Part shown: one piece after another, positions 15,525 through 62,360 of the stretch
Layout of the letters: each line of letters begins with the position of its first letter
How positions within the stretch are numbered: position 1 is the first letter of the stretch
Source of the DNA: Lepidostoma basale
Taxonomy: Eukaryota > Arthropoda > Insecta > Trichoptera > Lepidostomatidae
Length of the DNA: 64,000 nt
NCBI GenBank assembly: GCA_022606425.2
Contig: JAHDVF020001345.1
Location: 1 to 64,000, forward strand
Direction: 5' to 3'
Notes under the pieces: model-generated
What the model saw: only the letters and a program-made list of their open reading frames with translations
Database searches by the model: none
What the model was told of the DNA's origin: nothing
Position numbers and translations under genes: made by a program

Positions 15525-15870
15525 AAACTTTGTTTTATGTATCGCAATTGTATTTTTATTTTACGTGTACCTGTACTTTAACCTATGTTGACATCATCAG
15601 GTGTTACAATAATATATCAAATGTCAAATTTTCGTAATTTTTCGAATCTTTGTGTGTATTTGTTCCTATGTCAATTCGAATAATTTAAAATTAATTATTA
15701 AAACTAACATAGGAACATAATGGTTCGAAAAATCACTAAAATTTTACATTTGGTATATTATTGTAACACCTGATGATGTCATCATATGTTGACGAAACAG
15801 CTGTCGCGTAAAATAAAAATACAATTGTGATACATAAAACAATTTATTTTTATGTATCAAACAGTTTATT
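15525..15870. repeat. Hairpin element HP1, copy a
   Basis: Inverted arms share ACTTTGTTTTATGTATC, CAATTGTATTTTTATTTT, then the motif region and CATCATCAGGTGTTACAATA. The right arm (plus) carries a hammerhead-like motif at 15770-15805. The left arm has lost the GAAA/helix III part. A spacer separates the arms. Confidence 0.75.
15770..15805 (+). ncRNA. Hammerhead-like ribozyme motif (HP1a right arm)
   Basis: CTGATGA, extra T, helix II GTCATC/GTTGAC (one T-T mismatch), GAAA, helix III from ACAGCTGT, triplet GTC with predicted cleavage after 15805. Helix I would form between the AACAC before and the GCGT after, with an A-C mismatch at the second pair. Confidence 0.6.
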
Positions 15871-16604
15871 TGGAACATTTCTGTAACCCTGATAAAACTC
15901 CGGCAAGAGCAAAACCCGTTAAAGCAAAAATATTAGCTAAAAAATATAATATATAAAAAAATATATAAATCTAAAAAAAATATAAAAAATATATATCGTA
16001 TTTTACATTGATTTATATGGGAAACATTGTTTCACTTAACAAGTGCTTCACACAACGAGTAAGATTCTGGAACGAATTATTCTAGTTATGAGGGGTTCCA
16101 CTGTATTACATTTTCGTTGATTAATGACGTACATAACCCAAACTTACCCTATTGACAGCGAACCAGATACCAAATTTAAACCAAATTGGCATTCATTCTA
16201 ATGGCAAACTTACATAATCTAAAAGCTGAATTTATATTCCTCACACTCTTCAACACTTTCGCGTAAACTAGAAAGATATAAGTGTAGGAGCCTTAAAGTA
16301 CTTTGCATTACCAACTCGGATCTCTGGAATACCTGCTCACCGGAACTCGTGTTGATTTCCTCTGACGTCATCCACTTCCGGCTTCCATACTTGCTTCATA
16401 AATCTCTCTCAGATTCCTCTCAATCAAACCTAAGCCCACGCAAATAAAGTTCTGCCAGTACTTTACTATGATAGTGGTTTTCCACAATCTATTCAGGTAA
16501 AATTTTAATGGATTTGGCTACGTAAATTTGAACTTATGTAATAAAAATTTGTATTCAGAATACATAATAAGATCCTTATGGATAATTAATATTTTAAATT
16601 GAAA
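15871..16604. other. Mostly unassigned; decayed motif at 15885-15925
   Basis: CTGATAA, a GCAAGAGC stem side and AAAACCCGTTA at 15885-15925 look like a worn hammerhead-type core. 16250-16500 is less A+T-rich, without coding character or known repeats. Confidence 0.3.
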
Positions 16605-16825
16605 TTACTTGGTAGACGTTCATATTAAATATGAAAACAAAAAAAAATTATACAAAATTTCTTTATTATTATATATTTAATGTGTTTCCACTTGTGTTTA
16701 TCGCCGACCGGTTTCGGCAGCATTAACCATAACCAGAATATGGCAGTTAGCTACCGAAACCGGTCGACGATAAATACAAGCGGAAGCACACTAAATGTAT
16801 AATAATTAAGAAATTTTGTCAATTT
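16605..16825. repeat. Hairpin element HP4, copy a
   Basis: Arms contain ATTTCTTTATTATTATATAT/ATAATTAAGAAATTTTG and GTGTTTCCACTTGTGTTTATC, with GACCGGTTTCGGCAG facing CTACCGAAACCGGTC at the centre. Other copies or halves: 31590-31780, 40895-41000, 61375-61500. The plus-strand motif at 16734-16765 has CAGAATA in place of CTGANGA. Confidence 0.7.
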
Positions 16826-16890
16826 TTTTTTTTAAATAATAAATTAAATGACTTTGTTTTTTTATATCACAATTGTATTTTATTTTATGC

Positions 16891-16926
16891 GACAGCTGTT
16901 TCATCAACCTATGTTGACATCATCAG
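16891..16926 (-). ncRNA. Hammerhead-like ribozyme motif (HP1b left arm)
   Basis: On minus: CTGATGA, extra T, helix II GTCAAC/GTTGAT with loop ATAG (six pairs, one G-T), GAAA, ACAGCTGT, C. All core positions match the hammerhead consensus apart from the extra base after A9. Triplet GTC. Confidence 0.7.
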
Positions 16927-16978
16927 GTGCTACGATAATATATCAAATAATATATCATTTGATATATTATTGTAACAC

Positions 16979-17014
16979 CTGATGATGTCAACATAGGTTG
17001 ATGAAACAGCTGTC
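16979..17014 (+). ncRNA. Hammerhead-like ribozyme motif (HP1b right arm)
   Basis: It has the same core, helix II and GTC triplet as the left arm. Predicted cleavage after 17014. The facing copy at 16891-16926 would compete by pairing with it along its full length. Confidence 0.7.
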
Positions 17015-17193
17015 GCGTAAAATAAAATACAATTGTGATATAAAAAACAAAGTTTTTTAATTAAACAGTTTAAAATGTTTAGGTATCATAGTGTTCTGGC
17101 CAAAACAATGGACTATTTACTTTTTTTTGTTTTCATTATTCTGATGGATGTTTAGAACCACTTATAAAAAATACGTCATAAAAATCCAAGGTT

Positions 17194-17415
17194 GACGTCC
17201 TTCGTGGCAGAGGTGTAAGAGCTATGAATGACACACCGAAGATCCCGAATTCGATTCCAGAGATAGCAGTGTAATTGTCACACTTCCTCTGGTCTGGTGT
17301 AAAATTCTAGAGACAATTAAATGGCGATAGATTAGTTATTTGTCAAACGTAATGGAAATCCATAGATAAAAAGTTGTACTCAGTAATTGGGTTCAAATAA
17401 CCTGCTATATATAAA
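17194..17415 (+). mobile_element. tRNA-derived SINE, diverged copy
   Basis: It starts GACGTCCTTCGTGGCAGAG (A box damaged), then AATTCGATTCC (B box, near 17249), the family body with AATGGCGATAGATTAG, and TTGGGTTCAAATAACCTG before an A-rich end. Confidence 0.75.
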
Positions 17416-17860
17416 TTTTTTAAAACATCCCAAGAACCAGTAAAATGTTACATATTGCTGCAAACCAATTCTTAGATTGAAACAACTGTAAAAGAAGAAG
17501 TCCAAGGTAATGTTTAAAATAAAATAAAGCATGAGAGTCTGCAATATTATGTGTAAGAGAATGGTGATAATCTGTAACAATTCAATGGATTTGTATATTT
17601 AGGGAGTATGTTTACAAACTATTTGTAAACATACTCCCCTATATAAAGAAATGGAGAAGGCAAATGGTGCACTTAAAATGGTCATAACAAATAATTGTCT
17701 ATCCAAAATAACAGAGAGAATTATCTATCCAAATAACTGATGATGAGCCAACCCTAATATAGACGACCCCGGATAGACCACCAAAAAGATGGATAGGCTG
17801 GGAATCAACTTCGAAGAAGGTCAATTTTTAAATAGGCCATAAGGCCTACATTTAGAATAA
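17416..17860 (+). mobile_element. LINE 3' fragments
   Basis: 17435-17475 matches the GCTGCAAACCAATC/GATTGAAAC tail also at 28980-29125 and 58095-58125. 17600-17860 reads ANGALKMVIT, then PGRPPKRWIGWEST, then the GGCCATAAGGCCTA tail shared with 47820-47850. Two small 3' ends placed together. Confidence 0.5.
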
Positions 17861-17934
17861 AAAGAATAACAGTTTTTACTTCTTTTATTAATAATGTATT
17901 TTCTTCGATTATTAACATTATTAACAGTGTTCAA

Positions 17935-19090: not shown

Positions 19091-19284
19091 TTGAACAATG
19101 GACTGAAACTTTGAAATGATTTAACAAAAGACACAAGGAGTCTCACTACAAATCAATTTAAAATATACCTGAAACATTATATACAAGTAAAATCTAAAAA
19201 TGTATCCATATAACCCAATTGTTTTTTTTTTTTTTTAATAAATTAAATTAATGAAAAAACGTAAAATAAATTACGTTTAATAAA

Positions 19285-19795
19285 ATGAAATCACTCTTCT
19301 GCAATGATAACGTAAACTTGAAACTCCGCCAGAGAATGATCAAATGCTATGTGTGGTCTGTTTTATTGTACAGGTGTGAAACTTGGACCCTGAAAGTTAA
19401 CTCAATGAACAGACTGGAAGCATTTGAAATGTGGCTCCATCGCCGAATGCTCATAGTTCCCTGGACAGACATGGTTACCAATACCGAAGTCCTGAGGCGA
19501 GCTAGAGTTGACAGGGAATTGGTATCAACTATCAAGGTTCGAAAGATCTCACATCTGGGTCATATACTGCGTGGGGAAAAGTACCACCTTCTCCAACTGA
19601 TATTGGAGGGAAAATTGAGGGACGCCGAGGGCCCGGAAGGAGACAAATGTCCTGGCTGCGAAACGTGACGGAGTGGATCGGCATCCGAAGTGTTGAGGAG
19701 CTGTTCCGAGCGGCGCAGGACAGGGACAGGTTCGCCGAGGTGATCGCCAACGTTGGAGGGACCCGACAGGGCACTTGAAGAAGAAGAAGAATGAA
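19285..19795 (+). mobile_element. LINE ORF2 C-terminus, (GAA)n tail
   Basis: A 127-codon frame reads KLRQRMIKCYVWSVLLYRCE, then TWTLKVNSMNRLEAFEMW and LGHILRGEKYHLLQLILEGK. A one-base shift near 19625 moves the family end (GRRQMSWLRNVTEWIGIRSV) into another frame, and the end is AGAAGAAGAAG. YxxETWTL and LGHILR are usual after the catalytic domain of this LINE class. 5'-truncated. A minus-strand copy of the same piece lies at 21484-22150. Confidence 0.8.
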
Positions 19796-20010: not shown

Positions 20011-20384
20011 GAGGAACGGCATTAAAAAGATTGCCGGGACGATATGGATGCATGTTGCCTAAGATTAACAGAAATAAAACAGAGCAGTCACTTATATTCT
20101 TAATGGAGATCGAAAAATGGAAGGGGTATAATTAGGGTTGAAGAGAGGAGAGATGTAACGGTTTTCTAATCTGTTTTATTTGACTGTTAAAATTGTATAC
20201 ATGATAAAAGTTTCTTGTAACCGAAACATGTCTGAGTTCAGTAAAAATAAAAAGTGTTGTAATGCAAAGTGTAACTATATTTATTCAAAAAATAGGCATC
20301 ATCTAAGAAGACAATCTAATTATTTCACTGTAATAATTAGATTATCTTCAATAATTAAATAAATAATAAGAAGGAAAACGTCAA

Positions 20385-20640
20385 TTTTCTAGAAGTTTCA
20401 TCACATTTCACACGAATGACATGTTTTGCTGTTAAGGCGATATATGTTATTCCCATAAAATATAATGACACTTCTAGAAAACTGGCGTTTTCATTATTAT
20501 TGATTATTTAATATGAAGTTTTACATCATTGTTCAAGAAGCAATAAATACGAGTTAAACGACACTCTCTATCTTTATTTCGACAGCGACTGGTTTCGCCA
20601 GTCTTGCTGGCATCGATAGACTGCTATTTGTTTCCCAAGT
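20385..20640. repeat. HP2 half copy followed by HP3 half copy
   Basis: 20390-20510 has the HP2 outer arm (GTCAATTTTCTAGAAGTTTC facing TAGAAAACTGGCGTTTTC) with a decayed centre. 20545-20640 has the HP3 inner arm; on minus it reads GCCAG/CTGGC (helix II, five pairs) then GAAACCAGTC, but TATCGAT replaces the CTGANGA side. Confidence 0.6.
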
Positions 20641-21160
20641 TTTGTTTGCAAAATTCTAAAATAACAAATTCATAACAAATTTAAGCCATATAAGTAGTTT
20701 TTGGCTACCCTGTTTGTATTTTATTTGCAATGCAACTAGCATCTAGATTAGTGCATACTTTTTTGCAGCCCATTGTACTTCGGACGATAGTACCATTACA
20801 GACCGCCACAAACAATAGGAATACAATGTGTCATATCAAATGCTTGGCCGTCATGTGCAGAGCTCTCGCTGTTCGATACAACCCCCTCCCCCAGCCGCCA
20901 GCCGCGTACTGTCGCCCGTACCCTTCAACCAACCCCGCACGCTGAACGACTGAAATTATAGCTGGCTGGAGCATCTGAGTAGGTTATACGAATGGACATT
21001 CTACTATTCCACATCATATAGTGTTGAATCTACAAATTTTAATTCAGACCGATTATTTAACGGAACCAGAAAATTACACAAAAATATACTTAATCAGTTA
21101 TTCATCGATTGTTTTGACCAAAACCCTATGATGCTTCAACATTATTATCTGTTAAATTAT
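20641..21160. other. Unassigned, includes a C-rich patch
   Basis: 20870-20945 is rich in C. The plus-strand frame of 71 codons here shows no domain and its ends do not look like exon boundaries, so no gene is called. Confidence 0.35.
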
Positions 21161-21192
21161 AAAACGCTGTTTATGGTATAATTTTTTTTTGC

Positions 21193-21228
21193 GACAGCTG
21201 TTTCATCAACCTATGTTGACATCATCAG
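21193..21228 (-). ncRNA. Hammerhead-like ribozyme motif (HP1c left arm)
   Basis: Identical in core and helix II to 16891-16926: CTGATGA, T, GTCAAC/GTTGAT, GAAA, ACAGCTGT, C. Triplet GTC. Confidence 0.65.
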
Positions 21229-21392
21229 GTGTTACAATTTTTTGCACTGTTCCTATGTCAATTTGAAGAGGGAACTAAGAACTTCAAAATTTTATCAAAG
21301 AAATTATTCAAATTGACATAGGAACAAATACGCATAAGGGTTCGAAAAATCACGAAAATTAATTTTGAATGTTCAAAAAATTATTGTAACAC

Positions 21393-21428
21393 CTGATGAT
21401 GTCAACAAAGGTTGATGAAACAGCTGTG
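21393..21428 (+). ncRNA. Hammerhead-like motif with G17 (HP1c right arm)
   Basis: Core and helix II are intact, but the base after ACAGCTGT is G. Hammerheads need H (A, C or U) at position 17, so this arm should be inactive while its partner is not. Confidence 0.55.
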
Positions 21429-21483
21429 GCGAAAAAAAAATTGTAATAACACAAACAGCGTTTTATAATTTAACAATTAATCT

Positions 21484-22150
21484 TCTTCTTCAAGTGCCCT
21501 GTCGGGTCCCCCCAACGTTGGCGATCACCTAGGCGAACCTGTCCCTGTCAGAACAGCTCCTCCACACTTTGGATGCCGGTCCACTCCCTCACGTTTCGCA
21601 GCCAGGACATCTGTCTCCTTCCGGGCCCTCGCCGTCCCTCAATTTTCCCCTCTAATATCAGTTGGAGAAGATGGTACTTTTCCCCACGCAGTATATGACC
21701 CAGATGTGAGATCTTTCGAACCTTGATAGTTGATAACAGTTCCCTGTCAACTCTAGCTCGCCTCAGGACTTCGGTATTGGTCGTATGTCTATTACTCGTA
21801 TATTACTCGTATGTATATTACTCGTATGTCTATTACTCGTATGTCTGTCTATGTATATGTATATTACTCGTATGTCTGTCCAGGGAACTATGAGCATTCG
21901 GCGATGGAGCCACATTTCAAATGCTTCCAGTCTGTTCATTGAGTTAACTTTCAGGGTCCAAGTTTCACACCCGTACAATAAAACAGACCACACATAGCAT
22001 TTGATCATTCTCTGGCGGAGTTTCAAGTTTACGTAATCATTGCAGAAGAGTGATTTCATTTGATGAAACGTAGCTCTTGCTGCCTCAATTTTGCATTTTA
22101 TCTCTACATCTGGGTCAAGAGATTGCGTTAGTATGCTGCCGAGGTGTTTA
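21484..22150 (-). mobile_element. LINE ORF2 C-terminus interrupted by a minisatellite
   Basis: Minus-strand counterpart of 19285-19795, including MKSLFCNDYVNLKLRQRMIK and LEAFEMWLHRRMLIVPWTD, and the family end near 21490-21660. At about 21782-21880 a tandem repeat of the word TATTACTCGTATGTC takes the place of, or is inserted in, the segment after PWTD. Confidence 0.75.
21782..21880. repeat. TATTACTCGTATGTC minisatellite
   Basis: Five or so irregular units (ATTACTCGTATGT with GTCT or GTAT spacers). It lies inside LINE coding sequence, so it is younger than that insertion. Confidence 0.7.
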
Positions 22151-23752: not shown

Positions 23753-24171
23753 TCTCAAAAATAAAGTGGTTGTATTCAAAATACATAAAAAAAAGTGTTT
23801 AATTAAAAAAAACAGTGGATAACGTGGAATAAAAATTAAATAAACACAAATGTCTGGATCGTCCAGCTGACGACAAGTGCACCATCTAAAATAACATTAT
23901 GTGTTAAATTATGTTTCTTTGTTATTTTATTTTATATCATTATATTTCAGATAATTTGTTTTAGATTTATTATGTAGACGTTTAACGATCGAAGTGTGCG
24001 CGGGAGATGCCTTTTGGTGGCGATGAGGTTCGCAACCCATCACACCGCGTCTCTCGCGATGGCGAAAAGAGAAGGATGGAGTGCCGCATCGATTAAAGTG
24101 TGGCAGTCCATTCTTTCTGCCTACCCTTTCGGGGAGACGGCGTGATGGTTAGTTAGTTAGTTAGTTAATTA
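23753..24171 (+). mobile_element. HP7 scrap and TTAG-tail non-autonomous element (copy B3)
   Basis: 23753-23803 is an arm of HP7 (AAATAAAGTGGTTGTATTC). From about 23810 the TTAG element follows, with CTGGATCGTCCAGCTGACG, the GATCGAAGTGTGCGCGGGAG block, the shared 3' block and a TTAG repeat at 24147-24166. Confidence 0.7.
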
Positions 24172-24449
24172 ATGTTTACTTTCCATGAAATTGTGTCTCA
24201 ATGCTAATTTTATTTATATTGAAAGTATAAAATTTGAAATAATAATTAAAAAAAAACGATGTTTTTTAACTACTTTCACTTTTGTCTTTATTCCTACAGC
24301 GACCGGTTTCGCCAGGCTCACTGTCGAAATAAAGACAAAAGTGGAAGTAGTTAAAAAACATTGTTTTCATTAATTATTATTTCAAATTTTATACTTTCAA
24401 TATAAATAAAATTAGCATTGAGACACAATTTCATGGAAAGTTAACATTA
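24172..24449. repeat. Hairpin element HP3, nearly perfect arms
   Basis: Arms of about 115 bp (ACTTTCCATGAAATTGTGTC on the left; its complement ends at ~24445) are almost identical over ATATTGAAAGTATAAAATTT and TTTTTTAACTACTTTC. Only the loop carries motif sequence: on minus, GCCTGGCGAAACCGGTCGCT. The near identity suggests recent activity or gene conversion. Other partial copies: 20545, 34010, 37975, 41700, 50970, 63690. Confidence 0.85.
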
Positions 24450-24650
24450 ATTAAACACTTTTTTATCTATTTTGAATACAACCACTTTATTTTTGAGAAT
24501 GAGAGCCTACCGGTTATGCTCTATGCGAGCTTCCTCGGGGCTTTATACATGTATAAAGCCCTGAGGAAGGTCACATAGAGCAAAATTGGTAAGCCTTCAT
24601 TCTCAAAAATAAAGTTATTGTATACCAAATACATAAAAAAAGTATTTAGT
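24450..24650. repeat. Hairpin element HP7
   Basis: Left arm TACAACCACTTTATTTTTGAG, GAATGAGAGCCTACCGGTTA; right arm CATTCTCAAAAATAAAGTT. The inner parts read GAGGAAGCTCGCATAGAGC on minus and CTGAGGAAGGTCACATAGAG on plus. Each arm has different defects: the left has lost GAAA (ATAA) and U4, while the right keeps CTGAGGA but has AAAA. Together they imply an ancestral CTGAGGA, A, GCTC/GAGC, GAAA, ACCGGT, A. Confidence 0.75.
24561..24591 (+). ncRNA. Hammerhead-like motif (HP7 right arm, worn)
   Basis: CTGAGGA core with extra A, weak helix II, AAAA for GAAA, TTGGTA ending. The AAAGCC before the core could have paired with GGCTC, which follows the triplet in the left arm. Confidence 0.4.
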
Positions 24651-24654
24651 TACC

Positions 24655-27173: not shown

Positions 27174-27204
27174 GACATGTTTCGGAGGATACCTCCATCT
27201 TCAG
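27174..27204 (-). ncRNA. Hammerhead-like ribozyme motif, all three helices (HP9a)
   Basis: On minus: helix I side ACGC, CTGAAGA, extra T, helix II GGAGG/CCTCC with loop TAT, GAAA, ACATGT, C, then GTGT, which pairs with ACGC (C-G, G-T, C-G, A-T). Triplet GTC. Every invariant hammerhead base is present. One of the two strongest candidates. Confidence 0.75.
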
Positions 27205-27412
27205 GCGTAAAAATAAATTTAAAACTAAACAAAGAAAAACTAATAAGAATCGCATTTAAAATTCGATACAATAATTCAAATTTTAAAAATTAACCTGGAC
27301 TGTTTGTTATAAGTAGGTACTAACAATTATTTTTATTGATAACAGTATGATAAATAATTAATACGAATGAAAACGTCAGTTTTCTAGAAGTTTTATTATA
27401 TTTTATGGGAAT

Positions 27413-27443
27413 GACATGTTTCGCCCTTCTAAGGCATTTTCAA
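27413..27443 (-). ncRNA. Hammerhead-like motif, U3-A8 variant (HP2a left arm)
   Basis: TTGAAAA stands for CTGANGA: C3 to T and G8 to A, with U4, G5, A6, A9 kept. Then T, helix II GCCTT/AGGGC (loop AGA), GAAA, ACATGT, C. Triplet GTC. Confidence 0.55.
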
Positions 27444-27452
27444 ACTAGACAT

Positions 27453-27483
27453 TTGATAAAGCCTTAGAAGGGCGAAACATGTA
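27453..27483 (+). ncRNA. Hammerhead-like motif, U3-A8 variant (HP2a right arm)
   Basis: TTGATAA, extra A, GCCTT/AGGGC, GAAA, ACATGT, A (GTA triplet). Position 7 differs from the left arm while positions 3 and 8 do not. Confidence 0.55.
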
Positions 27484-27584
27484 ATTCCCCTAAAATATAA
27501 TAAAATATCTAGAAAACTGACGTTTTCATTCGTATTAATTAAATATGTATTGAACTGGTGACAAGTATGCATGCGAAATGATCT

Positions 27585-30190: not shown

Positions 30191-31585
30191 ATTAATCGTG
30201 TATTGTATATCAAAAGTATATCAAATCACGCTGTATTTGAAGACATTAAGAAGCCATAAACTAACGTTATAACATCTAGACTACGATTTGAATTACATCC
30301 TTCTTCTAAACTCGTAATATTCCCCTTTCATTTCACACTCGTTCCTAGCGCACTTACCTAAAACAGGCTTAAATGAGGCCTTAGGGATGGAATTAACTTT
30401 CAAGATTTCTAATGTGGGATTAAACTGTTTGTTAGAACGGAAAACACCCCCGCTCTCAACCCTTATGGCAATAAAACCTGGAATATCTCTCGAAGCCTGT
30501 AGGCTAGGAACCAAAATTCAATTTCATTTAAAGTTTCGCCAAATGTAAACATTCTGAAGAACGCGTTGCCAGTCTATTAAATAGGGTCATAAAATATGTA
30601 ATTATATTTTGAACGTCATACATTACGTTTGTTTTTAATTAAACTCCTTACTTAAGCATTTTGAAAAACAAATAGAATATTATTTGCGGTTACTCCTATA
30701 ATATTTACTTTGCTCTTACCGCATGTACATCAAGGTAAAACGTACCATAAATATTTTTATTATATTTGTTACTTAGAAAATAAATATTAAGTTACGATTT
30801 TATTATGTTTTCAAGGAAATTTCTCGTAAGCCGTTAAGTATGTGTTTTGGAGATGAACACATAGCTATATAGCAAATAAATAACAGAGAACAAGGAGAAA
30901 AGGTTGAAGGGTAAATAATAAACAATTAAAATCTGATCAAGTTATAATAGTTAGTAATTAGACGTAAGAATATAGCTTTATGAAAATAAATACGCAATAC
31001 GAGTATATAATATATCAATAAACTGATAAGTTCGAGTACAGCTGATAAAGCAAAATTATTATATTTATAATAAAATCAATAACAAAACTAAGTCCGCTTA
31101 AGTTTGGATAAAAAGCCACTGATACATTGTTTAACAGTATAATTCAGAGCATTGCATATTATCATAATATTTTTACTTCGTAAGTCTGTCTTTGGTTTTG
31201 ATTTAATTTCCTTCGGGTGGAAGTGGTCTCGAAGTGTATAGTATTTTTATTTTGTATTTTTTTAATAAATAAAGTGGAACTAAAGAGAGTTTATTAGAAG
31301 GAATGTGTTCTTTACATATGCCTGTATACATATAAATCTATCAACTCTAAATGTATTCTAAATGTGTAACTCTAAATGTACTATCAACTCTAAATGTATT
31401 CAACATAACGTATTAAAGAGTGAAGCATAGAGTTTGCAAGAGATGAATATATCATAGGAATGAGATATCTAATACAAATTTGCAGAAAAGAACATGTGTT
31501 AGAAGACCAAGCGAACACATAATGAAGGACTATATTTTATGACAGATGAGTGCAAATAATTAATGTTTTTAATTGAAATTTCTTG
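30191..31585. other. Mostly unassigned; single-copy patch and small minisatellite
   Basis: 30290-30560 is less A+T-rich and single-copy here. Its minus-strand frame of 73 codons lacks domain features. 31335-31405 repeats ATCAACTCTAAATGTATT-like words three to four times. The rest is A+T-rich. Confidence 0.35.
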
Positions 31586-31589
31586 TTAG

Positions 31590-31780
31590 AAGTTCATTTT
31601 AAATAATGAAAACAAAAAAAAATTATTCAAATTGTCTTTATTTGTGTTTATGTTATTCCTCAGACCAGAAGATGGCAGCAAGCTACCGAAACCGGTCGAA
31701 CATAAACATAAGTGAAAGCACACTATATTAAATAAGAAATTTTGTATAATTTTTTTTTTTTGTTTTCATTATTTAAAATA
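31590..31780. repeat. Hairpin element HP4, copy b
   Basis: Outer arms ATTTAAATAATGAAAACAAA and its complement near 31760-31780. The motif on plus (31666-31697) reads CAGAAGA, T, GGCAG/CTACC (one mismatch), GAAA, ACCGGT, C. Position 4 is A in all HP4 copies with a readable core, so this family departs from the hammerhead consensus at a base normally needed for activity. Confidence 0.65.
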
Positions 31781-31839
31781 AGTGAAACATAATAAAAATT
31801 AAGTAAATGTCACATAATGGTATTGACAAAAGGGGCGAG

Positions 31840-32765: not shown

Positions 32766-32824
32766 TGTTTAAAATTCTCGTTTTTTGTTTCGTGAATAAT
32801 GGCGTAAAACTCTATATGAAATAA

Positions 32825-33000
32825 TTTACACTAAAGAAAACGTCTGTTTTCTAGAAGTTTTATTATATTTCGTGGGAATGTTTCGCCTTACTAAGGCAAT
32901 ATCAAATATTTGATAACGCCTAAATAAGATTAAATAAGTCATACATATAAAATATAATGAAACTTCTAGAAAACGAACGTTTTCATTCATAATAATTATT
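32825..33000. repeat. Hairpin element HP2, worn copy
   Basis: Arms AAGAAAACGTCTGTTTTCTA and TAGAAAACGAACGTTTTCAT. The centre is damaged: the minus motif has TTGATAT and GAAACATTCC; the plus one has lost GAAA. Confidence 0.65.
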
Positions 33001-33585
33001 TTAAATTCTCTTTCCATGCGCAAAATATAAGCTCACAAATCGGCATTGTGTGGATTCTCCGCAATATAAGACAAATAAAGCAGTTAGTTCAAATAAAACA
33101 TTACACGAACAATAGAGAAACTCTCGCTTAAAAATAAACTAACTTTGTTTAAACCAGATATCCCACTAGCTATCTTCACAAGATTGAACCTTATCAGCTG
33201 ACTAGATGCGAATTTTAAACAGGTCTTTTTAAAAACAGTGCTGCCAGTAACGAGTCGCACGCTATCTCAATGCAATAATAAATTCCTATTAAAATACGTG
33301 TCTTAAGCAACCCCCACCCACCCTCCAGCGGCAGCCCCCGCTTAAGTCGCTAATCCCCGACATAAATTCACCCGCTCCTCTGAGAAAAAGAAACAAATGT
33401 ATCAGACTTCTCAACCCCTAAATTCCCGCGTCGGAAACCTTTGGAATAACATTTACTAATTCAATATTATGAGGGTTATTTCCTTGTAATTTCGCGATGG
33501 CATATTGTGATTTTCTTCCTTAGCTGGATTCGCCTCCCTTCTTTATTAGCTAGCTGCTTCTAGGAAATTTAATTTTGATCAGCTT
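33001..33585. other. Unassigned; C-rich single-copy patch
   Basis: 33300-33420 (CCACCCACCCTCCAGCGGCA) is unusually C-rich for this window and has no frame. Confidence 0.3.
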
Positions 33586-37990: not shown

Positions 37991-38129
37991 TCGAAATAAA
38001 AACAAAGTGGAAATTGTTCATTGAAAACATGTTTCTATTAAAATCATCCTAAAGATTTCATTTAAATCATTTGATTATGTAAAAAACTTCTTTTTTATAA
38101 ATAGTATAATCTTATATTTTTATTCATTA

Positions 38130-38310
38130 AAATGAATGAAAACGTCTGTCTTCTGGGAGTTTTATCATGTGTGATGGAATGGCATGTTTCGCCCTTCTAA
38201 GGCATTATCAAATGTTATCAAAGACATTTGATAATGCCTTCGAAGGGCGAAACATGTCATTTCATCTCAAATATAATAAAACTCCTAGAAGACAGACGTT
38301 TTCATTCACA
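38130..38310. repeat. Hairpin element HP2, copy b
   Basis: Arms: GAATGAAAACGTCTGTCTTC, GGGAGTTTTATCATGTG, then GCATGTTTCGCCCTTCTAAG and complement. Motifs at 38181-38211 (minus, T16.1 changed, so GCC) and 38228-38258 (plus, intact). A further half copy lies at 38490-38570. Confidence 0.8.
38228..38258 (+). ncRNA. Hammerhead-like motif, U3-A8 variant (HP2b)
   Basis: TTGATAA, T, helix II GCCTT/AGGGC (loop CGA), GAAA, ACATGT, C. Only the first two pairs of helix I (AT before, AT after) are supported. Confidence 0.55.
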
Positions 38311-38579
38311 TTCATTACTTAATATGGAGTTTAACATCATTGTTCAAGAAATAATAAATAAAAATAACTTAACTTCAAGTCCAATAATCGATTTTTTCCC
38401 TTTGTCCCACAATTCTTGTAAAAAAACAATTACGCCTACCTCTATACTTAACTAAATTGGTAATGCCTTACAAGTGATTTCATGTGATTCCCATGTGATT
38501 CCATCTATCTCAAACATAATAAAACTCCTAGAAGACCGACGTTTTCATTTATTCGAATTATTTAACATTGTTCAAGAAA

Positions 38580-41197: not shown

Positions 41198-41236
41198 CTG
41201 ATGATGGAGGCCGCAAGGGCCTCCGAAACGTTGGTG
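41198..41236 (+). ncRNA. Hammerhead-like motif with 7-bp helix II, isolated
   Basis: CTGATGA, extra T, helix II GGAGGCC/GGCCTCC with loop GCAAG, GAAA, ACGTTGGT, then G. The strongest helix II in the window. Position 17 is G, which should block cleavage. No opposite arm was found within 500 bases. Confidence 0.55.
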
Positions 41237-41599: not shown

Positions 41600-41780
41600 T
41601 GGATTCATATTTGAATAAATATAACTGCACTTAATATCATAACACTTAATTTCAATCATTACAGACATATTTCGGTTACGACGTCACCTTTTTCAATGTA
41701 TTTTTCTTTTAAATTTAACTACTAACAAGTGGAAGTAGTTAAAAAAATCGGTTTATTTAATTATTATTTAAAAAGAACTT
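41600..41780. repeat. HP-type half element with motif, then HP3 half copy
   Basis: CACTTAATATCATAACACTT followed by a minus-strand ribozyme-like motif (41664-41696). HP3 arm words (ACAAGTGGAAGTAGTTAAAA) follow at 41725-41745. Confidence 0.5.
41664..41696 (-). ncRNA. Hammerhead-like motif, U3-A8 variant with perfect helix I
   Basis: On minus: TACA, then TTGAAAA (C3 to T, G8 to A), extra A, helix II GGTGAC/GTAACC (loop GTC, one mismatch), GAAA, TATGT, C, then TGTA, which pairs fully with TACA. Structurally parallel to 46344-46377, with different bases in helix I. Confidence 0.6.
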
Positions 41781-41917
41781 CTATCAAGAGATTTCAGTAA
41801 AATCATTCGATAATACATTGTTTCGGCGGAAACACTTTCATATTTCAACATTATTAACTGTTTAAATAAAAAATCTTTGTTATAAATATAATATCACAAT
41901 TGATTATATTTTGCCGC

Positions 41918-41953
41918 GACAGCTGTTTCGCTAACTGATGTTAGCATCGTCAG
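41918..41953 (-). ncRNA. Hammerhead-like ribozyme motif, covarying helix II
   Basis: On minus: CTGACGA, T, helix II GCTAAC/GTTAGC with loop ATCA (six Watson-Crick pairs), GAAA, ACAGCTGT, C. Compared with 16891-16926 (GTCAAC/GTTGAT), base pairs 2 and 3 have both members changed. Triplet GTC. Confidence 0.72.
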
Positions 41954-41992
41954 GTCTTCATCAACTTGAATGTAAGACGTTGATTGTAAGAC

Positions 41993-42028
41993 TTGACGAT
42001 GCTAACTTCGGTTAGCGAAACAGCTGTC
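41993..42028 (+). ncRNA. Hammerhead-like motif, C3 changed (right arm)
   Basis: TTGACGA, T, GCTAAC/GTTAGC (loop TTCG), GAAA, ACAGCTGT, C. As the left arm but with T at position 3, giving a U3-G8 wobble. Confidence 0.55.
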
Positions 42029-42075
42029 GCGGCAAAATATAATCAATTGTGATATTTATAACAAAGTTTTTTGGC

Positions 42076-43055
42076 TAAATCCTTCTATCATCCCTAAGTA
42101 AGAGTCCATGTCGTTTCCTCCCCTTGTAAGAGAGGGTCTTCATATTTATTATGTATCGAATGGATTTTTTTTTATCTAAAATATACACATATATTTTTAC
42201 AAATTACAATCAAAATATTCTACTTAGCTTGAAAAATCAATTCCGAGAAATATTTATACGTTAAAAACATAATTACTTCAGAATAACACATTATTTTGCT
42301 ATTTTAAAAAGTATTTTTCTCATAAAAAATTCGTTCGTTTCGATTAAATATTTACCAACGTATTCATTTAGTCGAATTAAGTATATTTGTTCGTTAAATT
42401 TCATTGTTTACGCTTGGTTAAGATAAATTTGAAAAACGAATATTTTAAAAAAGAAATAATTTTCCAAACACCAGAACGCAAACAGGCCCATCTCTTAAGG
42501 GATAAAAGTGTCAAGGGAGAAAGAGAAAATCGAACGCGAATTATTGTGAGAACAATAAGGCGAGGAGATAAGCGAAACGGGGGACAGACGAGAAGAGGCG
42601 AGACGGGGAGATCAGACAGAGAGGGGGAAAGATAAAGAACAGAGAAACCGAGTAATGCAGCTTTATTTGAATGTCAGACGTAAATGGCTTGCCTAACAAA
42701 GTGGAAAAATTAAGACAAATGTTCCTCGATTGCAGGATTGAGTTACGCGAATGTGAACCCTATTGGAGCCCAATCGGAATATTCTGGCAGGAATTTATGG
42801 CGATGAATAAAATCTAACCTCAAATTTGATTGTGGTCCTAGTTAGGGTTTAGAGTTGAATTATTAGATTCTGTTACCATTTTCTGACCCTAGATTTTACT
42901 ACTAAAAGTATCTAATTAATTAGGTAACATATTTAGCTTTATTCTATTAAGATTTCGTAAAAATATTGAAAAAAAAATCGGGTCGAAAAATCTAATACAT
43001 AAAATAAATATTTCTTTATACTTTGTCTTTTAGAATATTTATATTTTTAAAATAG
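42076..43055. other. Mostly single-copy; purine-rich tract
   Basis: 42500-42660 is strongly purine-rich (GGGAGAAAGAGAAAATCGAA, GGGAGATCAGACAGAGAGG). 42670-42850 is mixed in composition. No domain-bearing frame; candidate intronic conserved sequence. Confidence 0.35.
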
Positions 43056-45589: not shown

Positions 45590-45770
45590 TTATAGCTATC
45601 ATAGTGATTCTTGTGACATCTGATAGGTAGGTAATCTATCGCCATTTTATTGTCACGTGAATTCTACACCAGACCAAAGACAGTGTGACAATCACACTGC
45701 CCTCGCCGGGAATCGAACCCAAAACCTTCGGGGAGGCAGTCAATGCATTTACCACTCGGCCACGAAGGCC
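45590..45770 (-). mobile_element. tRNA-derived SINE, good copy
   Basis: A box TGGCCGAGTGG (45762-45752) fits TRGCNNAGYGG; B box GGTTCGATTCC (45719-45709) is exact. The body runs to GATGTCACAAGAATCAC. The tRNA-like head differs from 13535-13756 at several sites, so at least two source copies existed. Confidence 0.82.
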
Positions 45771-46343: not shown

Positions 46344-46377
46344 GACATGTTTCGGGACACAGAAGGCCCTTCTTCAG
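46344..46377 (-). ncRNA. Hammerhead-like ribozyme motif, all helices
   Basis: On minus: CACG, CTGAAGA, extra A, helix II GGG/CCC with a 10-base loop, GAAA, ACATGT, C, then TGTG pairing with CACG (one G-T, three Watson-Crick). Triplet GTC. All invariant bases present. No inverted partner was identified nearby. Confidence 0.7.
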
Positions 46378-47209
46378 CGTGTAAAATTTTAACAGCTCAA
46401 TGGGACAAAATCGTTACTTATATACTAAATAAAATTAAAATAGCAAAGGAGGGGTGGGGATGATTCCAAGAAGCAGTGTTAATGGGGTTTTGTTGCCAGA
46501 ACAATGAGCCAGGGGAAATAAATCTAATATCGGACTGGAAGTTAAATTAATTTGATTATTTATAATTTATTCTTTATTTTTAATCGCCTTTTTTATTTCT
46601 AGGATTTCAAGATTATTTAAAGTTAGGTTTCTATTACTTACATGCAAAATTCAACGCCGTTATTTTTATCAAACGAGTGATCTTTTTCAATAAGATGATT
46701 TGCGAATTCTGAAAAAATATTATTTGAGAGACATCTAATGTGCTCTTTTAATCTTAAATTAATGTTGTGCGTTGTTTTACCTATATAGAAAGATGAGCAA
46801 TCGTCACATTTTAGTTTATAAACTCCTCTCTTAAAATGTTCATTTTTAGGAGGAGCTTTCCAGACGTAAATATTTCACGAAATCCATATCAACATCATCA
46901 TTCGTATAAAGCACTTAATTTGTGCTTTAACATTCAAAGACATGAATTAAACAGATCGAAACAAATAATTAATTAATGGACTTGTATTAAATAATACGAA
47001 TAAATACATATTTTTCCAGACTTTCATTAAATATTATACAATATTCAATGGGAACGACATGTTTCGCCTTGCCAAAATTTCTATTCGTAAATTATTTGAT
47101 ACAGAAATTCGCATCTTTGTTCAAGAAACAATTATTTTAGCTTTAATATGGGAAGGTAATTTTAAACACTGTAATATCTGCATAAGTATTTTCAATTTAG
47201 TAATAAAGA
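46378..47209. other. Unassigned; HP2 scrap at the end
   Basis: 46430-47000 has no recognised repeat. 47045-47085 is an HP2 inner-arm scrap (GGGAACGACATGTTTCGCCT). Confidence 0.35.
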
Positions 47210-47870: not shown

Positions 47871-48305
47871 GAAAGAATAATAAAGTGAATAATACGGTGA
47901 TTAGAATTCTCATTCCATATTAACAATGAAACGTAGTGTTAACTACTTTACCTTAAATTAGCTTTAATATATTATTGTGCCTGAAATGATCACAGGCCGC
48001 CAATGGCAGATGGTAAACATGTGGAATCAGGAATCCCGCAGGCAGTCATACATCTCGTATCCAATGAAGTGAGAAACGTGACTTTTGTGAGGGAAACAGG
48101 AAGAACGGCGTCAACAAAGGAAACGTCGGGATTTTGTATGGAAGTCTCATTTCCCACCGCAGCCACTTGTTGCGGCCTGAATTATGAGATTATCCTGTTT
48201 TTTTCTATTACGTTTATTTATCTCAGCCGATATCGCGAGCTATCGCGTCTTACTTTAGATTATCATTATATTGCTTATTCTCATAATTTAATATTAGTTG
48301 TAAAC
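47871..48305. other. Apparently single-copy stretch
   Basis: 48000-48200 is less A+T-rich than its surroundings. The plus-strand frame of 131 codons from 48003 runs into HP-like A+T sequence and shows no domain. Candidate conserved intronic sequence. Confidence 0.3.
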
Positions 48306-48309
48306 TGTT

Positions 48310-48510
48310 CAATAAAAAACTTTGTTTTATGTATCATAATTGTATTCATATTTTTCGCGACCTATGTTGACATCATCAGGTGTTACAAATATATATAAAA
48401 AAATAAATGTATATATTACTGTAGCACCTGATGATGTCACATAGGTTGACGAAACAGCTGTCGCGAAAAATAAAAATACAATTGTGATACATATAACAAA
48501 GTTATTTAAT
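48310..48510. repeat. Hairpin element HP1, copy d
   Basis: Arms ACTTTGTTTTATGTATCATA and TACAATTGTGATACATATAA. The left arm lacks the GAAA/helix III segment (deletion after GCGAC); the right arm keeps the motif. Confidence 0.8.
48428..48462 (+). ncRNA. Hammerhead-like motif (HP1d)
   Basis: CTGATGA, T, helix II GTCA-C/GTTGAC (one base deleted), GAAA, ACAGCTGT, C. Triplet GTC. Confidence 0.55.
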
Positions 48511-48519
48511 TTAACAGTA

Positions 48520-50339: not shown

Positions 50340-50560
50340 TGGTAGGACATTATTAAAGTGTAAATAAAACACTTGTTTTTCACCACTTGAGTATTACATT
50401 TTACACCACTAGTTTCGGAAGCTACAGATGCTTCCATCTACAGGTTTAAATATTTAAACCTGTAGATGGAAGCATCTGTAGATTCCGAAACTAGTCGCGT
50501 AAAATATAATACTCAAGTGGTAAAAACAAGTGTTTTATTTACAATTTAGAAATCAATAGG
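50340..50560. repeat. Hairpin element HP5
   Basis: Arms of ~90 bp: TAAATAAAACACTTGTTTTT, CACCACTTGAGTATTA and complement, meeting at TTTAAATATTTAAA (50445-50458). Each arm carries a motif (50407-50443 minus, 50460-50496 plus). The only copy of this family here. Confidence 0.82.
50460..50496 (+). ncRNA. Hammerhead-like motif, A6 changed (HP5)
   Basis: CTGTAGA (A6 to T), T, helix II GGAAGC/GATTCC (one mismatch; perfect GGAAGC/GCTTCC in the left arm), loop ATCTGTA, GAAA, ACTAGT, C. The left-arm motif has G at position 17. Probably inactive. Confidence 0.45.
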
Positions 50561-54024: not shown

Positions 54025-54259
54025 TTGTAAACGTAGACGAAACAAGAAATATAGGAACACCGAGGAAAACGTGACACGATCAAATCAGTCAAAGATTAAA
54101 TATCGGTCACGTGAGGAGTCGGGAAAATCGACGTGCAACAAGCATGGCACAACAAATATTTGTGTAGAAGAATGTAAAGAAGTAAATCATTTTTCCTCTT
54201 TTTCTTTTTTTATACATTTTGTTTATACAACACTTATATTATTATTTTTTTATTATATT

Positions 54260-54290
54260 GACAAGTTTCGAAAAACCAGTCCTTCTTCAG
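54260..54290 (-). ncRNA. Hammerhead-like motif (HP8 left arm)
   Basis: On minus: CTGAAGA (all invariant bases), extra A, helix II start GGAC with loop TGGTT but a worn second strand (TTTC), GAAA, ACTTGT, C. Triplet GTC. Confidence 0.5.
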
Positions 54291-54477
54291 TAATACATTT
54301 TATAAATATACATATTTCAAAATAATATAAAATTGTTTATATGATCTGACAGATGTTATAAAGATTTCTTCTGAAACAAAATAATTTAAAAATCCAAAAT
54401 AAATCTTTAGAACATCTGTCAGATCATTTAAACAATTTTATATTATTTTGAAATATGTATATTTACAAAATGTATTA

Positions 54478-54508
54478 ATGAAGAAGGACTGGTTGTCCGA
54501 AACATGTA
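54478..54508 (+). ncRNA. Hammerhead-like motif (HP8 right arm)
   Basis: ATGAAGA (C3 to A), A, helix II GGAC/GTCC with loop TGGTT, GAAA, ACATGT, A. Complementary defects to the left arm: together they imply an intact ancestor. Confidence 0.5.
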
Positions 54509-54680
54509 TATATAATTTTATTGTTTTAATATAAGTGTTGTATAAACAAAGTGTATAAAAAAGAAAAAGAGAAATAAAGCAATAACAACACAAAGTATGG
54601 CTAATATATTTAGAAGAAAAGTAAATCATAATTTCTGCTGACCCCTTCAGAGAAACGGCATGATGGTTACTTAGTTCGTT

Positions 54681-58640: not shown

Positions 58641-58652
58641 CGCTAAGGCAAT

Positions 58653-59851: not shown

Positions 59852-59953
59852 GCTAAGGCAATAACACTGTGGAATTCCATAACAATATACTTAGGAAATT
59901 GAAAATAACTTTGTTTAATCCACTAATCATTAAAAAATATTTTTTTAAAACAC

Positions 59954-59984
59954 GACATGTTTCGAAGGATACCACCATCTTCAG
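59954..59984 (-). ncRNA. Hammerhead-like motif (HP9b left arm)
   Basis: On minus: CTGAAGA, T, helix II GGTGG/CCTTC (worn; loop TAT), GAAA, ACATGT, C, then GTGT. The helix I partner is ATGT rather than the ACGC of 27174-27204. Triplet GTC. Confidence 0.5.
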
Positions 59985-60106
59985 ATGTAAAAATATAATT
60001 AAAACTAAACAAAGAAAGACTAATTTAAAACGTATTTAAAATTCGATACAATAATTCAAATTCAAAAATTAACCCGGGCTAATAATTATAAGTACTAATA
60101 ATTATT

Positions 60107-60270
60107 ACGATGTAAATGGAACCAGAAATAGAGAAAGACCGAAGAAAACGAGACACGATCAAATAAATCAAATATAGACACATTGACAGGAAAGAAAAGT
60201 GTGACAGTCCATTCTTTCTGCCTACCCCTTCGGGGAGATGGCGTAAAGGTTATTTAGTTAGTTAGTTTGT
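60107..60270 (+). mobile_element. TTAG LINE 3' end inside HP9
   Basis: GATGTAAATGGAACCAGAAA, AAACGAGACACGATCAAATA, then an internal deletion to GGAAAGAAAAGTGTGACAGT and TACCCCTTCGGGGAGATGGC, tail TTATTTAGTTAGTTAGTTTG. Confidence 0.7.
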
Positions 60271-60294
60271 TTAATTGTTATTATATTTTTACAC

Positions 60295-60328
60295 CTGAAT
60301 ATGGAGGATGTATCTTCCGAAACATGTT
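60295..60328 (+). ncRNA. Hammerhead-like motif (HP9b right arm)
   Basis: CTGAATA (G8 to T), T, helix II GGAGGAT/ATCTTCC (seven pairs, one G-T), GAAA, ACATGT, T (GTT triplet). Helix II is longer than in the facing arm. Confidence 0.5.
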
Positions 60329-60410
60329 TGTTTTTTGTTTAAATATTTTTTTAATAATTATTAGATTAAACAAAGTTATTTTCAATTTCCTAAGTATACT
60401 AGTAAGAATA

Positions 60411-60955
60411 CTCATACAGCGTGTTATGCACGCGAGTCGATTTTTCTGACTCCTCACTTGGCCGACATTCAATATTTGATTTATTTGACCGTGCCACGTT
60501 TTCCTCGGTCTTCGTCTATTTCTGGGTCCATTAACATCGTTAACTTATAAATTTTTTACCATTCTTTCTTTATTAATTCTTTCCTTATGTCCAAACCATC
60601 TTAATGACCCCTTCATTACTTTCTTCATAACACCGTCATTCGCACCGCATTTACTCCTTATATTTTCATTCGACACTCTATCATACACAGAGTATCTACA
60701 CATTCGTCTAAGAGATCTATTTCTACTGCATTTATTCTACTTTCATCCTTCTTTTGTCAGTTACATGCTTCGCTTCCATACATAAGGGTCGGTAGCCACT
60801 GCCATTCTAACTTTTTTGGATTTTTTGGATAGATTTTGTTTGCGATGATTATTTTAAGTGCACCATTCACTTTGTTGCCTGCCCCAACCCTTCTTTCAAT
60901 ATCCTTCTCCACTCGCCCACCTCTTGTAAACATACTACCTAAATACTTAATAAAT
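60411..60955 (-). mobile_element. TTAG LINE C-terminal region, decayed
   Basis: GCGTGTTATGCACGCGAGTC, CCGTGCCACGTTTTCCTCGG, ACGCTTCGCTTCCATACATA-type words and CACCATTCACTTTGTTGCCT on plus match 34980-35530 in reverse, up to CTCTTGTAAACATACTACCT. Confidence 0.65.
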
Positions 60956-61370
60956 TATTTGAATCTTATACCTACATATATGATAATATAAGAGTCAAAT
61001 TTATTCATAAATTTAAAGCATATATTATTTCGTCTCTTCCTAAAAAACGATACGACGGAGGCAACCCGAAAATATTTCTGTATGAAATGTAGGAATATTT
61101 TTATTCCGTTAGCGGAGAACGGAATCGGTTAAGGAATTTGAATTCGTGCATAGATTTCCATAAAGATTGTGATCGTATAGGGAAGGTGATTGCATCGCGT
61201 TACATGCCATAACGCCCCATATATCATGGAAAATACATAATAAATTATGGTATGCGCGCTTCTGTATGATACTTTTTGTTACGTTTGGATAAAGCACAGT
61301 TAATATTAGAAAATTCCTGGAGAAAATTTCTTACTTCTCCTCGCCTTCTTCTTCTTCCTAGTAAATAATG
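60956..61370. other. Apparently single-copy stretch
   Basis: 61060-61310 is mixed in composition, with no frame of note or repeat match. A CTTCTTCTTC run lies at 61344. Confidence 0.3.
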
Positions 61371-61374
61371 AAAA

Positions 61375-61500
61375 TAAAATAAACGTACATTTTTTTTTGT
61401 ATTCTGCAGAATATTTAGTTAAAATCCACTAATTTTTGTATCTTCGACCGGTTTCGGCAGCTGCTGCCATCTTCTCGTTCGGATTGGTGGTTTACCACTG
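61375..61500. repeat. HP4 half copy with motif
   Basis: Arm words ATGAAAATAAAATAAACGTA. Minus-strand motif at 61446-61476: GAGAAGA for CTGANGA, T, helix II GGCAG/CTGCC (five pairs, loop CAG), GAAA, ACCGGT, C. Helix II is perfect here and broken at 31666-31697. Confidence 0.55.
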
Positions 61501-61559
61501 TCGGGGTTAAATGCATAACCCATATAAGTGGACTTCGACTGCTGAATCAGCATATTTCA

Positions 61560-62010
61560 TAATGAAATATACTACACGAATAACCGAAAACGCCTGACTC
61601 AGGACCTACTTATCAAAAGTGATGAATCGGGGCCCAGATTTATTCGCACAGGTCACTAGGTCACTAGAGCAGAGCATCGTGTGAAAAGGGAAGCAAAGCA
61701 TATAAACACGGTACATCCGACCACCATGGACAGTATTCCTTCTTGCAACTTCTAACCGACACGAGTCTACGCCGTCAAGTCTACGTACAAAGAACCCCCG
61801 ACTCTCCCACCGAGCTACGCTACTGTCTACACTGCTACGCCACGTAACTTCCGACGAGTCTTCGCTCCAGCCGACCGACGCTTTGCCCAGCGAGTCATCA
61901 GCCCCAGCTGCTATCGACGTCCAGGCGCACGCTCCATCACGTGTACATAATACTGTGAACGTATGATTACTTGTGATCTGCAATAAACGCTGAAACCTCC
62001 ACTGTTTTTA
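61560..62010 (+). mobile_element. Possible solo LTR or promoter-bearing repeat
   Basis: A C-rich block of mixed composition. It has GCATATAAACACGG (TATA-like, 61697-61710) and, ~270 bases on, GCAATAAACGCTG (poly(A)-signal-like, 61980-61992), the order expected of U3-R-U5. No paired copy, primer-binding site or duplication was found. The minus-strand frame of 125 codons is taken as chance, because its composition follows the C-rich plus strand. Confidence 0.35.
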
Positions 62011-62049
62011 ACTCTCACCACATCCCCCAAACCACTTATATTTAAAAAA

Positions 62050-62360
62050 AAATGGAGACAATTTCTTTCTTATTTCTTTTATTATATACTTTATATACAT
62101 CGCTCACATTTATTAAAAAAAAATAATTTAATTTAAATAAAAAACATGTTTCGCGCTAACCAGCCCTTCATTATAATATTTGTCAAAACTTATTATATTT
62201 GTAAACAATTTTATAATATTTTTAATATTCATAACATATTCTTTTTTAGTTCATGAGAGTGTTTTATACAAATTACATAAAAAAAGAAACATTAAACATC
62301 TACAGCAGAAAGTTATGGAGAACATAGAAGAAACAATTTCTTTCTACTAGATTTAAATTT
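62050..62360. repeat. HP8-like half element
   Basis: Minus-strand motif at 62143-62171: ATGAAGG for CTGANGA, short GCT/AGC stem, GAAA, ACATGT, T. Surrounding words (TTTCTTTTATTATATACTTT) resemble HP8 arms. Worn. Confidence 0.4.

Follow-up and report, generated by a model that had tools for sequence, protein, structure and literature searches.

Compact palindromic insertions of Penelope-like retroelements with a type I hammerhead layout in Lepidostoma basale

Why should a single stretch of an insect genome hold so many inverted repeats built around a motif that resembles the hammerhead ribozyme, and how did these repeats come to be inserted? The stretch in question comprises 64,000 nucleotides of Lepidostoma basale (Trichoptera; assembly GCA_022606425.2, contig JAHDVF020001345.1, positions 1 to 64,000; contig G000:C448 of our genome set), and is referred to here, at its full length, as the window. 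The genome set as a whole (768.8 Mb, 1,572 contigs) is clearly eukaryotic. We find that the repeats are insertions of several families of endonuclease (EN)-containing Penelope-like retroelements (PLEs), whose pseudo-long terminal repeat (pseudo-LTR) carries a minimal type I hammerhead layout, and that the compact repeats of the window are short insertions left by such elements. In family C, which was studied in depth, the ends of the copies point to a likely route by which they were made.

The motif and its Penelope-like carriers

An earlier note, made from the window sequence alone, had described a shared order of ribozyme-like core, complementary strands, GAAA, short palindrome and GTC, GTA or GTT, lying inside hairpin repeats of at least seven families. 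This order was borne out far above chance. Using a strict descriptor (core with at most one mismatch, stem II of at least 4 bp, GAAA, an in-register palindrome and GTH), we counted 12 sites in the window, whereas all 30 first-order Markov sequences used as controls were empty. Under a looser descriptor the window had 21 sites and each of the 30 Markov controls 1 to 7; 17 of the window sites stay within two core mismatches, as do 0 or 1 sites per control. A comparison of the window with itself revealed 20 self-palindromes, some of them nested, in line with the hairpin setting, and the count of seven or more families is a fair one, as judged from reading the motifs. Four of the sites named as best candidates (27174-27204 (-), 41918-41953 (-), 16891-16926 (-) and 16979-17014 (+)) are in the strict list; the fifth, 46344-46377 (-), fails the stem II rule, yet reaches 48.9 bits (E 2e-12) with a covariance model, R1, trained on 19 motif sequences that all lie outside the window. 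Genome-wide, the pattern CTGANGAN{11,30}GAAACATGTC has 7,057 + 6,918 = 13,975 exact matches, compared with 0 + 1 for the reversed pattern.

The layout is that of a type I hammerhead with a minimal helix III, three helices being arranged around CUGANGA and GAAA. Among the 19 outside-window sequences, both strands of stem I differ from family to family (ACAC/GTGT, TATCA/TGATA, CAG/CTG), as do those of stem II. The covariation score was 0.445, against 0.170 +/- 0.027 for shuffled alignments and above all 500 shuffles, and 86% of alignment cells were paired, compared with 23-53% when the partner was slid; in total, three of five covariation measures lay above all shuffles. What is established as the ribozyme is a layout with covarying stems, as distinct from an activity. 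Model R1 returned nine window sites at E<0.01, and it scores the ACAGCTGT family poorly (15763-15812, E 0.49; 16972-17021, E 4.5; the sites at 16891 and 41918 unlisted).

Several results tell against this assignment or lend it no support. The remaining two covariation measures did not stand out clearly from the shuffles: pairs with changes on both sides numbered 7 against 6.3, and further pair types 18 against 15.8. One row of the alignment, L061, is misaligned in stem II. In addition, the Rfam hammerhead search proposed in the earlier note gave no hammerhead match in the window, either at the gathering cut-off or at E<=10. RF00008 had no match in the whole genome, and the same search was equally empty in all 14 control genomes. 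Minimum-free-energy folds of three isolated motifs (z -1.35, -1.15 and 0.14) gave no support from folding energy, and stems I and II appeared together in only one of the three, the GGAC one. Low-threshold Rfam matches to microRNAs were set aside as hairpin artefacts of the palindromes.

The relation to Penelope-like elements, which the earlier note had suggested, is supported by coding sequence. In the window, a GIY-YIG endonuclease fragment (46641-46874 (-); 24.4 bits, Pfam cut-off 22.6) lies ~260 bp upstream of the GGGCC-family motif at 46344-46377 (-). Elsewhere, locus L061 contains a 758-amino-acid frame (1507-3780) with both a reverse transcriptase (RT) domain (RVT_1, 1.4e-13) and a GIY-YIG domain (6.6e-5), flanked by 456-nt inverted terminal repeats with the motif in both arms. 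A second locus, L062, has a 758-amino-acid open frame with the same ends, the motif being found in one of its two arms; each element has a 456-nt inverted terminal repeat and a motif ~390 bp past the frame, with 99.6% identity between the two elements across 3,210 bp. Both belong to family C, the motif of which is CTGTCGA-T-GCCAGCGAGCCTGGC-GAAACCGGTC. At a further locus (L019/L020), GIY-YIG coding stretches, arranged as a head-to-head pair, lie between two motif copies in inverted orientation. The domains PF26215, PF01541 or PF00078 occur in homologues of the EN part, and one homologue, from the plant bug Lygus hesperus, is 36% identical to the endonuclease region. The traits of EN-containing PLEs are thus found together: RT and GIY-YIG in one open frame (L061), pseudo-LTRs, often one inverted and with an optional tail (here 456-nt inverted arms, with short and long tails), and the duplication of some 8-12 bp of AT-rich target. 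The part of the earlier proposal that needs refining is the description of the families as compact relatives. In family C, on which the detailed work was done, the compact copies do not have to form a non-autonomous lineage of their own, and look like short insertions copied from the RNA leader of the autonomous element.

At least 150 scored GIY-YIG matches were found in the genome, at least two of them on bacterial-looking contigs. The best and third-best matches (L063 on G000:C102 and L064 on G000:C729) lie on contigs with dense long frames and a bacterial look; we take these two to resemble UvrC, and contigs of a symbiont or contaminant thus seem to be part of the assembly.

Ends and pairing of family C arms

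Family C was sampled with a 35-base probe that lies downstream of the predicted cut: of its 5,398 exact matches, the first 100 by contig order were taken. The sample contained 122 arms, namely 43 head-to-head pairs and 36 single arms, and ten arms were dropped at a locus edge or for want of a clean alignment, leaving 112 whose 5' end is defined. Over the aligned pieces, five copies set against L061 were 96-99.8% identical to it. The 3' ends fall into two groups, at +42 to +71 and +93 to +117 relative to the predicted cut, which by analogy resemble the two adjacent internal RT start sites of the Poseidon element PAc, and hence the 'tail' described for that element.

All 39 head-to-head pairs that are readable at both ends combine one near and one far 3' end. 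The other four of the 43 have one short end and a second that is cut by the locus edge, yet already reaches at least +95, and neither a short/short nor a long/long pair occurred among the 43. The 36 single-arm loci were set aside in this count; some look like pairs with a decayed partner. The same rule held in nine of nine longer elements, a set in which L059 and L056 repeat L036 and L052; L051, whose left tail was unreadable, did not enter the tail count, and L061, with a microsatellite target, did not enter the duplication support. Of the ten family B and D palindromes in the window, seven carry a single clear long tail. Furthermore, the two flanks share a string of at least 8 nt in 31 of 37 pairs (median 12), compared with 5.7% of mismatched flanks, and four single-arm copies (L097, L103, L115 and L118), with 5' ends from -39 to -36, have shared flanks of 10-12 nt. 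Such pairing of a near with a far end suggests that two copies are made in coordination, with priming on both strands of the target.

Inverted arms might also arise by self-priming, in which a single complementary DNA (cDNA) snaps back and is copied, as proposed for the Penelope of Adineta vaga and argued for in the Discussion of that work (PMC3846280). The palindromes and the short complementary stretches at junctions would suit such a process, as would the loci in which one arm ends at -39 or -38, as it often does, and the other inside the ribozyme (L070, L079, L094). However, since a copied-back single cDNA should give equal tails on both arms, self-priming does not fit the 39 of 39 readable pairs with one short and one long tail; nor does it fit the fillers between two arms that both end at -39 (L071, L073, L084), which resemble end-joining. 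We consider self-priming improbable for these copies.

Short inverted repeats, duplications and a high copy number are also what would be expected of DNA-transposon foldbacks, miniature inverted-repeat transposable elements (MITEs) or non-autonomous elements that replicate as palindromes, and a few loci do share their end pairs (-39/-35 in three, -38/+1 in two). Yet most copies have arm ends of their own, the termini within a copy are unequal, and the arms match an element with RT and EN, on which grounds the MITE reading was rejected. Loci L092 and L106 have the same unusual junction, -38 joined to +1, with different flanks and different duplications, which again does not suit such elements, and we regard this whole class of explanation as very unlikely. 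Fainter still is the case for metazoan retrozymes, tandem non-autonomous type I hammerhead repeats that move as circular RNAs. The repeats here are indeed short and AT-rich with a type I layout, and insects are described as carrying retrozyme-like repeats (PMC7229834), but no two exact motifs stood in tandem in 30 three-kb loci, the only neighbours being inverted, and the ends are PLE tails. L050 contained one motif pair in tandem. These loci do not consist of non-coding units repeated in tandem with a single ribozyme in each, and the retrozyme reading was rejected as barely credible.

At the other end of the arms, 44 of the 112 start at -39, 11 at -38 and 5 at +1, the remainder being scattered from -440 to +6. 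The base at -39 begins ACCAGT, where stem I has its 5' edge, immediately before the ribozyme, and a TATA box, TATATAAAG, starts 30 nt upstream of ACCAGT. On these positions, the simplest reading is that the family C ends would record a capped RNA start at ACCAGT. As the -39 end coincides with the edge of stem I (ACCAGU, where CAGU can pair with GCUG), it might instead mark a processing site or a structural stop of the RT at that stem. A stop caused by the fold would, however, be expected at its 3' side, which the enzyme meets first, and the TATA box stands at the canonical distance. A processing site or RT stop therefore seems to us unlikely, if worth keeping in mind, and ACCAGT is the putative transcription start.

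Proposed route of insertion and the ribozyme core

We propose, as the best explanation and one that we hold to be likely, that family C insertions are copies of the element's leader. As judged from cDNA ends, transcription by RNA polymerase II would begin at ACCAGU, which lies 30 bp below the TATA box and precedes the predicted cut by 39 nt, so that the ribozyme would come first in the leader. Element protein would then nick both strands of an AT-rich target ~10-12 bp apart, as the target duplications indicate, and reverse transcription would be primed at each nick, at one of two adjacent sites inside the leader, near +60 and near +105 to +117 as counted from the cut. Each strand would use a different start site, matching the one-short, one-long ends, with coordination perhaps achieved on one RNA or through an asymmetric dimer. 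With both starts near the 5' end of the RNA, copying would soon run off and leave 'strong-stop' cDNAs of ~100-155 nt; two such ends would be joined head to head by a putative joining enzyme, with the filler or microhomology seen at junctions, to give compact palindromes. Copying from the downstream pseudo-LTR may account for the longer elements with an open reading frame. Many insertions would not need cleavage by the ribozyme, since about half of the arms whose end is defined reach the start of the uncut leader. In line with this scheme, PAc is described as cleaving and extending both strands, with RT starting at two adjacent internal sites (PMC11167929).

A number of points count against this proposal. 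The sample of family C over-represents young copies, the start site below the TATA box is a putative one, judged from cDNA ends, and a discrete 5' end is seen in family C only: 26 GGAGG and 24 GGAC copies, compared by eye, have no single shared 5' end, and many run at least 110 nt upstream. The shared flank string is shorter than 8 nt in 6 of 37 pairs (L083, L085, L087, L090, L125, L127), and duplication support is weak in single-arm copies (9 of 27, vs 9.7% in the control). Three of the ten family B and D palindromes of the window have no long tail, and the 15500..15870 copy, counted among the seven with one, has a clear long tail on its left arm and a weak, six-mismatch match on its right (background 40 per 1000). 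Finally, the pooled PAc products reported in PMC11167929 display no start-site difference between strands, which neither shows nor excludes pairing within one insertion.

Can these ribozymes cut? The GGAGG, GGAC, GGGCC and B families have canonical CTGANGA cores, whereas window copies of other families carry U4A, A6U or C3U+G8A cores. Family E has CTGTAGA at one window locus, the ACCGGT subfamily has CAGAAGA (by eye), and in family D two of the three scored window arms read TTGATAA, which amounts to a C3-G8 to U3-A8 exchange; this exchange occurs naturally and is active in vitro (PMC3088659). In family C the conserved A6 is replaced by U6 in all 34 alignment rows (30 distinct) and in 56 of 56 cores. 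Because a natural A6C variant, from a phage, has a kobs below 0.1 per min (PMC3088659), family C by analogy probably cuts poorly, and with U6 in place of A6 its ribozyme activity is doubtful. We also note that an added T between core and stem II makes an ATG in most window families, and that families with an extra A instead have none; in the L061 sequence of family C, this ATG opens only 11 codons before a stop.

The arms that begin at +1 bear on the same question. Of 34 family C arms with ends from -34 to +6, five stop at +1. A uniform model gives P 0.0015 for this, or P 0.009 when the count is made by locus (4); a one-base junction ambiguity and the nearby palindrome could bias the excess. 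L074 accounts for two of these arms, and L092 is the same locus as L026. In the family C copy of the window, one arm starts at +2, with the base at +1 changed. In the canonical-core families, none of 17 elements with an inverted partner scoring at least 48, a cut-off that we set ourselves and used without a shuffle control, ends at the cut (28 distinct elements were examined, chosen for holding the motif). Arms ending exactly at the predicted cut are thus suggestive only of a ribozyme-cut footprint. It is a tentative idea, to which we give a modest chance, that even in this U6-core family the genome may hold an in vivo footprint of cleavage: two RTs would load on one leader RNA at two adjacent starts, one per nicked strand, which would give each two-ended insertion a near and a far start, and the copies would run to the capped 5' end or, in a minority, to a hammerhead-cut end.

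The window copies beside known elements

Table 1. Penelope-like copies, motifs and coding fragment in the window (positions in the window; by eye, identified by eye; R1, covariance model described in the text; strict and looser, descriptors described in the text)
Feature	Position	Strand	Details
Head-to-head palindromic PLE copy, family B (ACAGCTGT)	15500..15870		hammerhead layout 15770-15805 (+)
Palindromic copy, ACCGGT subfamily	16624..16844		core CAGAATA/CAGAAGA-like (U4 replaced); palindrome; by eye
Head-to-head palindromic copy, family B	16830..17075		motifs 16891-16926 (-), 16979-17014 (+); canonical core CTGATGA; one long tail
Palindromic copy, family D	20317..20549		palindrome; one long tail
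Palindromic copy, family B	21144..21481		motif 21193-21228 (-); one long tail
Compact palindromic copy, family C	24165..24454		one arm with ribozyme 3' half; other begins at predicted cut (+1/+2)
Hammerhead layout, GGAGG family	27174..27204	-	canonical core CTGAAGA; strict; R1 59.9 bits, E 7.5e-16
Palindromic copy, family D	27350..27546		27413-27443 (-), TTGAAAA core; 27453-27483 (+), TTGATAA core (C3-G8 to U3-A8)
Palindromic copy, ACCGGT subfamily	31568..31807		CAGAAGA core; palindrome; by eye
Palindromic copy, family D	32814..33006		palindrome; examined for tails
Palindromic copy, family D	38116..38325		motif 38228-38258 (+), TTGATAA
Hammerhead-like motif, 7-bp stem II, ACGT	41198..41232	+	strict; R1 E 0.002
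Palindromic copy, family B2	41740..42199		motifs 41918-41953 (-), 41993-42028 (+)
Hammerhead layout at 3' end of 5'-truncated PLE copy, GGGCC family	46344..46377	-	R1 48.9 bits, E 2.2e-12
PLE GIY-YIG endonuclease fragment	46641..46874	-	78 open codons, frame broken downstream; Pfam PF01541, E 3.6e-5
Palindromic copy, family B	48304..48518		motif 48428-48462 (+)
Palindromic copy, family E (ACTAGT)	50349..50553		CTGTAGA core (A6 replaced); motifs 50400-50450 (-), 50460-50496 (+); R1
Palindromic copy, GGAC family	54190..54577		motifs within 54254-54297 (-), 54471-54515 (+); R1
Inverted pair, GGAGG-family motifs	59947..60334		within 59947-59991 (-), E 2.3e-13; 60288-60334 (+), E 1.5e-8; R1
ACCGGT-subfamily motif	61446..61476	-	degenerate core GAGAAGA; looser

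The motif at 41198..41232 (+) has no inverted partner within 1.5 kb upstream. The flanks of the family C copy at 24165-24454 are symmetric beyond both tails, unlike those of the one-short, one-long copies, and a further palindromic element, 23869-24947, may have this copy in its middle. A distinct repeat adjoins several PLE ends (24090-24165, 24655-24745 and about 60230-60260 in the window; also L027 and L019/L020); it contains CTAACTAACTAACCATCACGCCGTC or a near-identical string and stands next to a run of TTAG units. Two inverted copies of a LINE-like (long interspersed nuclear element) 3' end with terminal AAG repeats, 19272-19792 and 21476-22072, are 90-98% complementary, and the family B palindrome at 21144-21481 abuts the AAG end of the second. 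Two tRNA-family matches exceed the Rfam cut-off (13681-13752 (-), 32.4 bits; 45698-45769 (-), 35.7 bits); given the repeat-rich setting, both may be heads of tRNA-derived short interspersed nuclear elements rather than genes.

Among known systems, PAc of Anolis carolinensis shares with the present elements RT and GIY-YIG in one frame, two adjacent internal RT starts and the use of both target strands; compact palindromes and start-site pairing within one insertion are data of the present family, and the PAc section of PMC11167929 contains none. The PAc mutants described there indicate that C3 and G8 matter for cutting, whereas family C has U6. The account of Adineta vaga Penelope in PMC3846280 includes head-to-head inverted pseudo-LTRs, an optional tail at one of them and a TATA box in the pseudo-LTR, all as here, together with duplications of 8-10 bp, which we liken to ours. 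That element is described as low in copy number, whereas thousands of compact copies allow ends to be counted here, and the main text of the paper does not mention the hammerhead. As the optional tail at one inverted pseudo-LTR was already noted in that 2013 paper, what is added here is the count and the exclusivity of the one-tail rule. In a search of titles and the openings of abstracts that lay mostly outside subscription journals, we found no earlier description of the one-near, one-far rule or of leader strong-stop copies, which is weak evidence of absence. Metazoan retrozymes, as presented in PMC7229834, share the type I layout and short AT-rich repeats with the present families, but are tandem and non-autonomous, whereas the repeats studied here are inverted, with PLE tails and a relative that encodes RT and EN. 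The core-variant hammerheads reported in PMC3088659 include the natural C3-G8 to U3-A8 exchange seen in family D of the window, and changes at A6 are described as rare; the A6 variant given there is A6C, in a phage, whereas A6U is common to the sampled copies of a young retroelement family here.

These observations address how PLEs insert, why they have head-to-head terminal repeats and what purpose the hammerhead serves, ribozyme mutants of PAc having left insertion unchanged in vitro (PMC11167929). With thousands of young compact copies, the RNA start, the two RT starts and their pairing can be counted from insertion ends, and each family offers a natural mutant in its core variant. Should the pairing rule prove general, it would point to two coordinated reverse transcriptases per insertion and would argue against simple self-priming.

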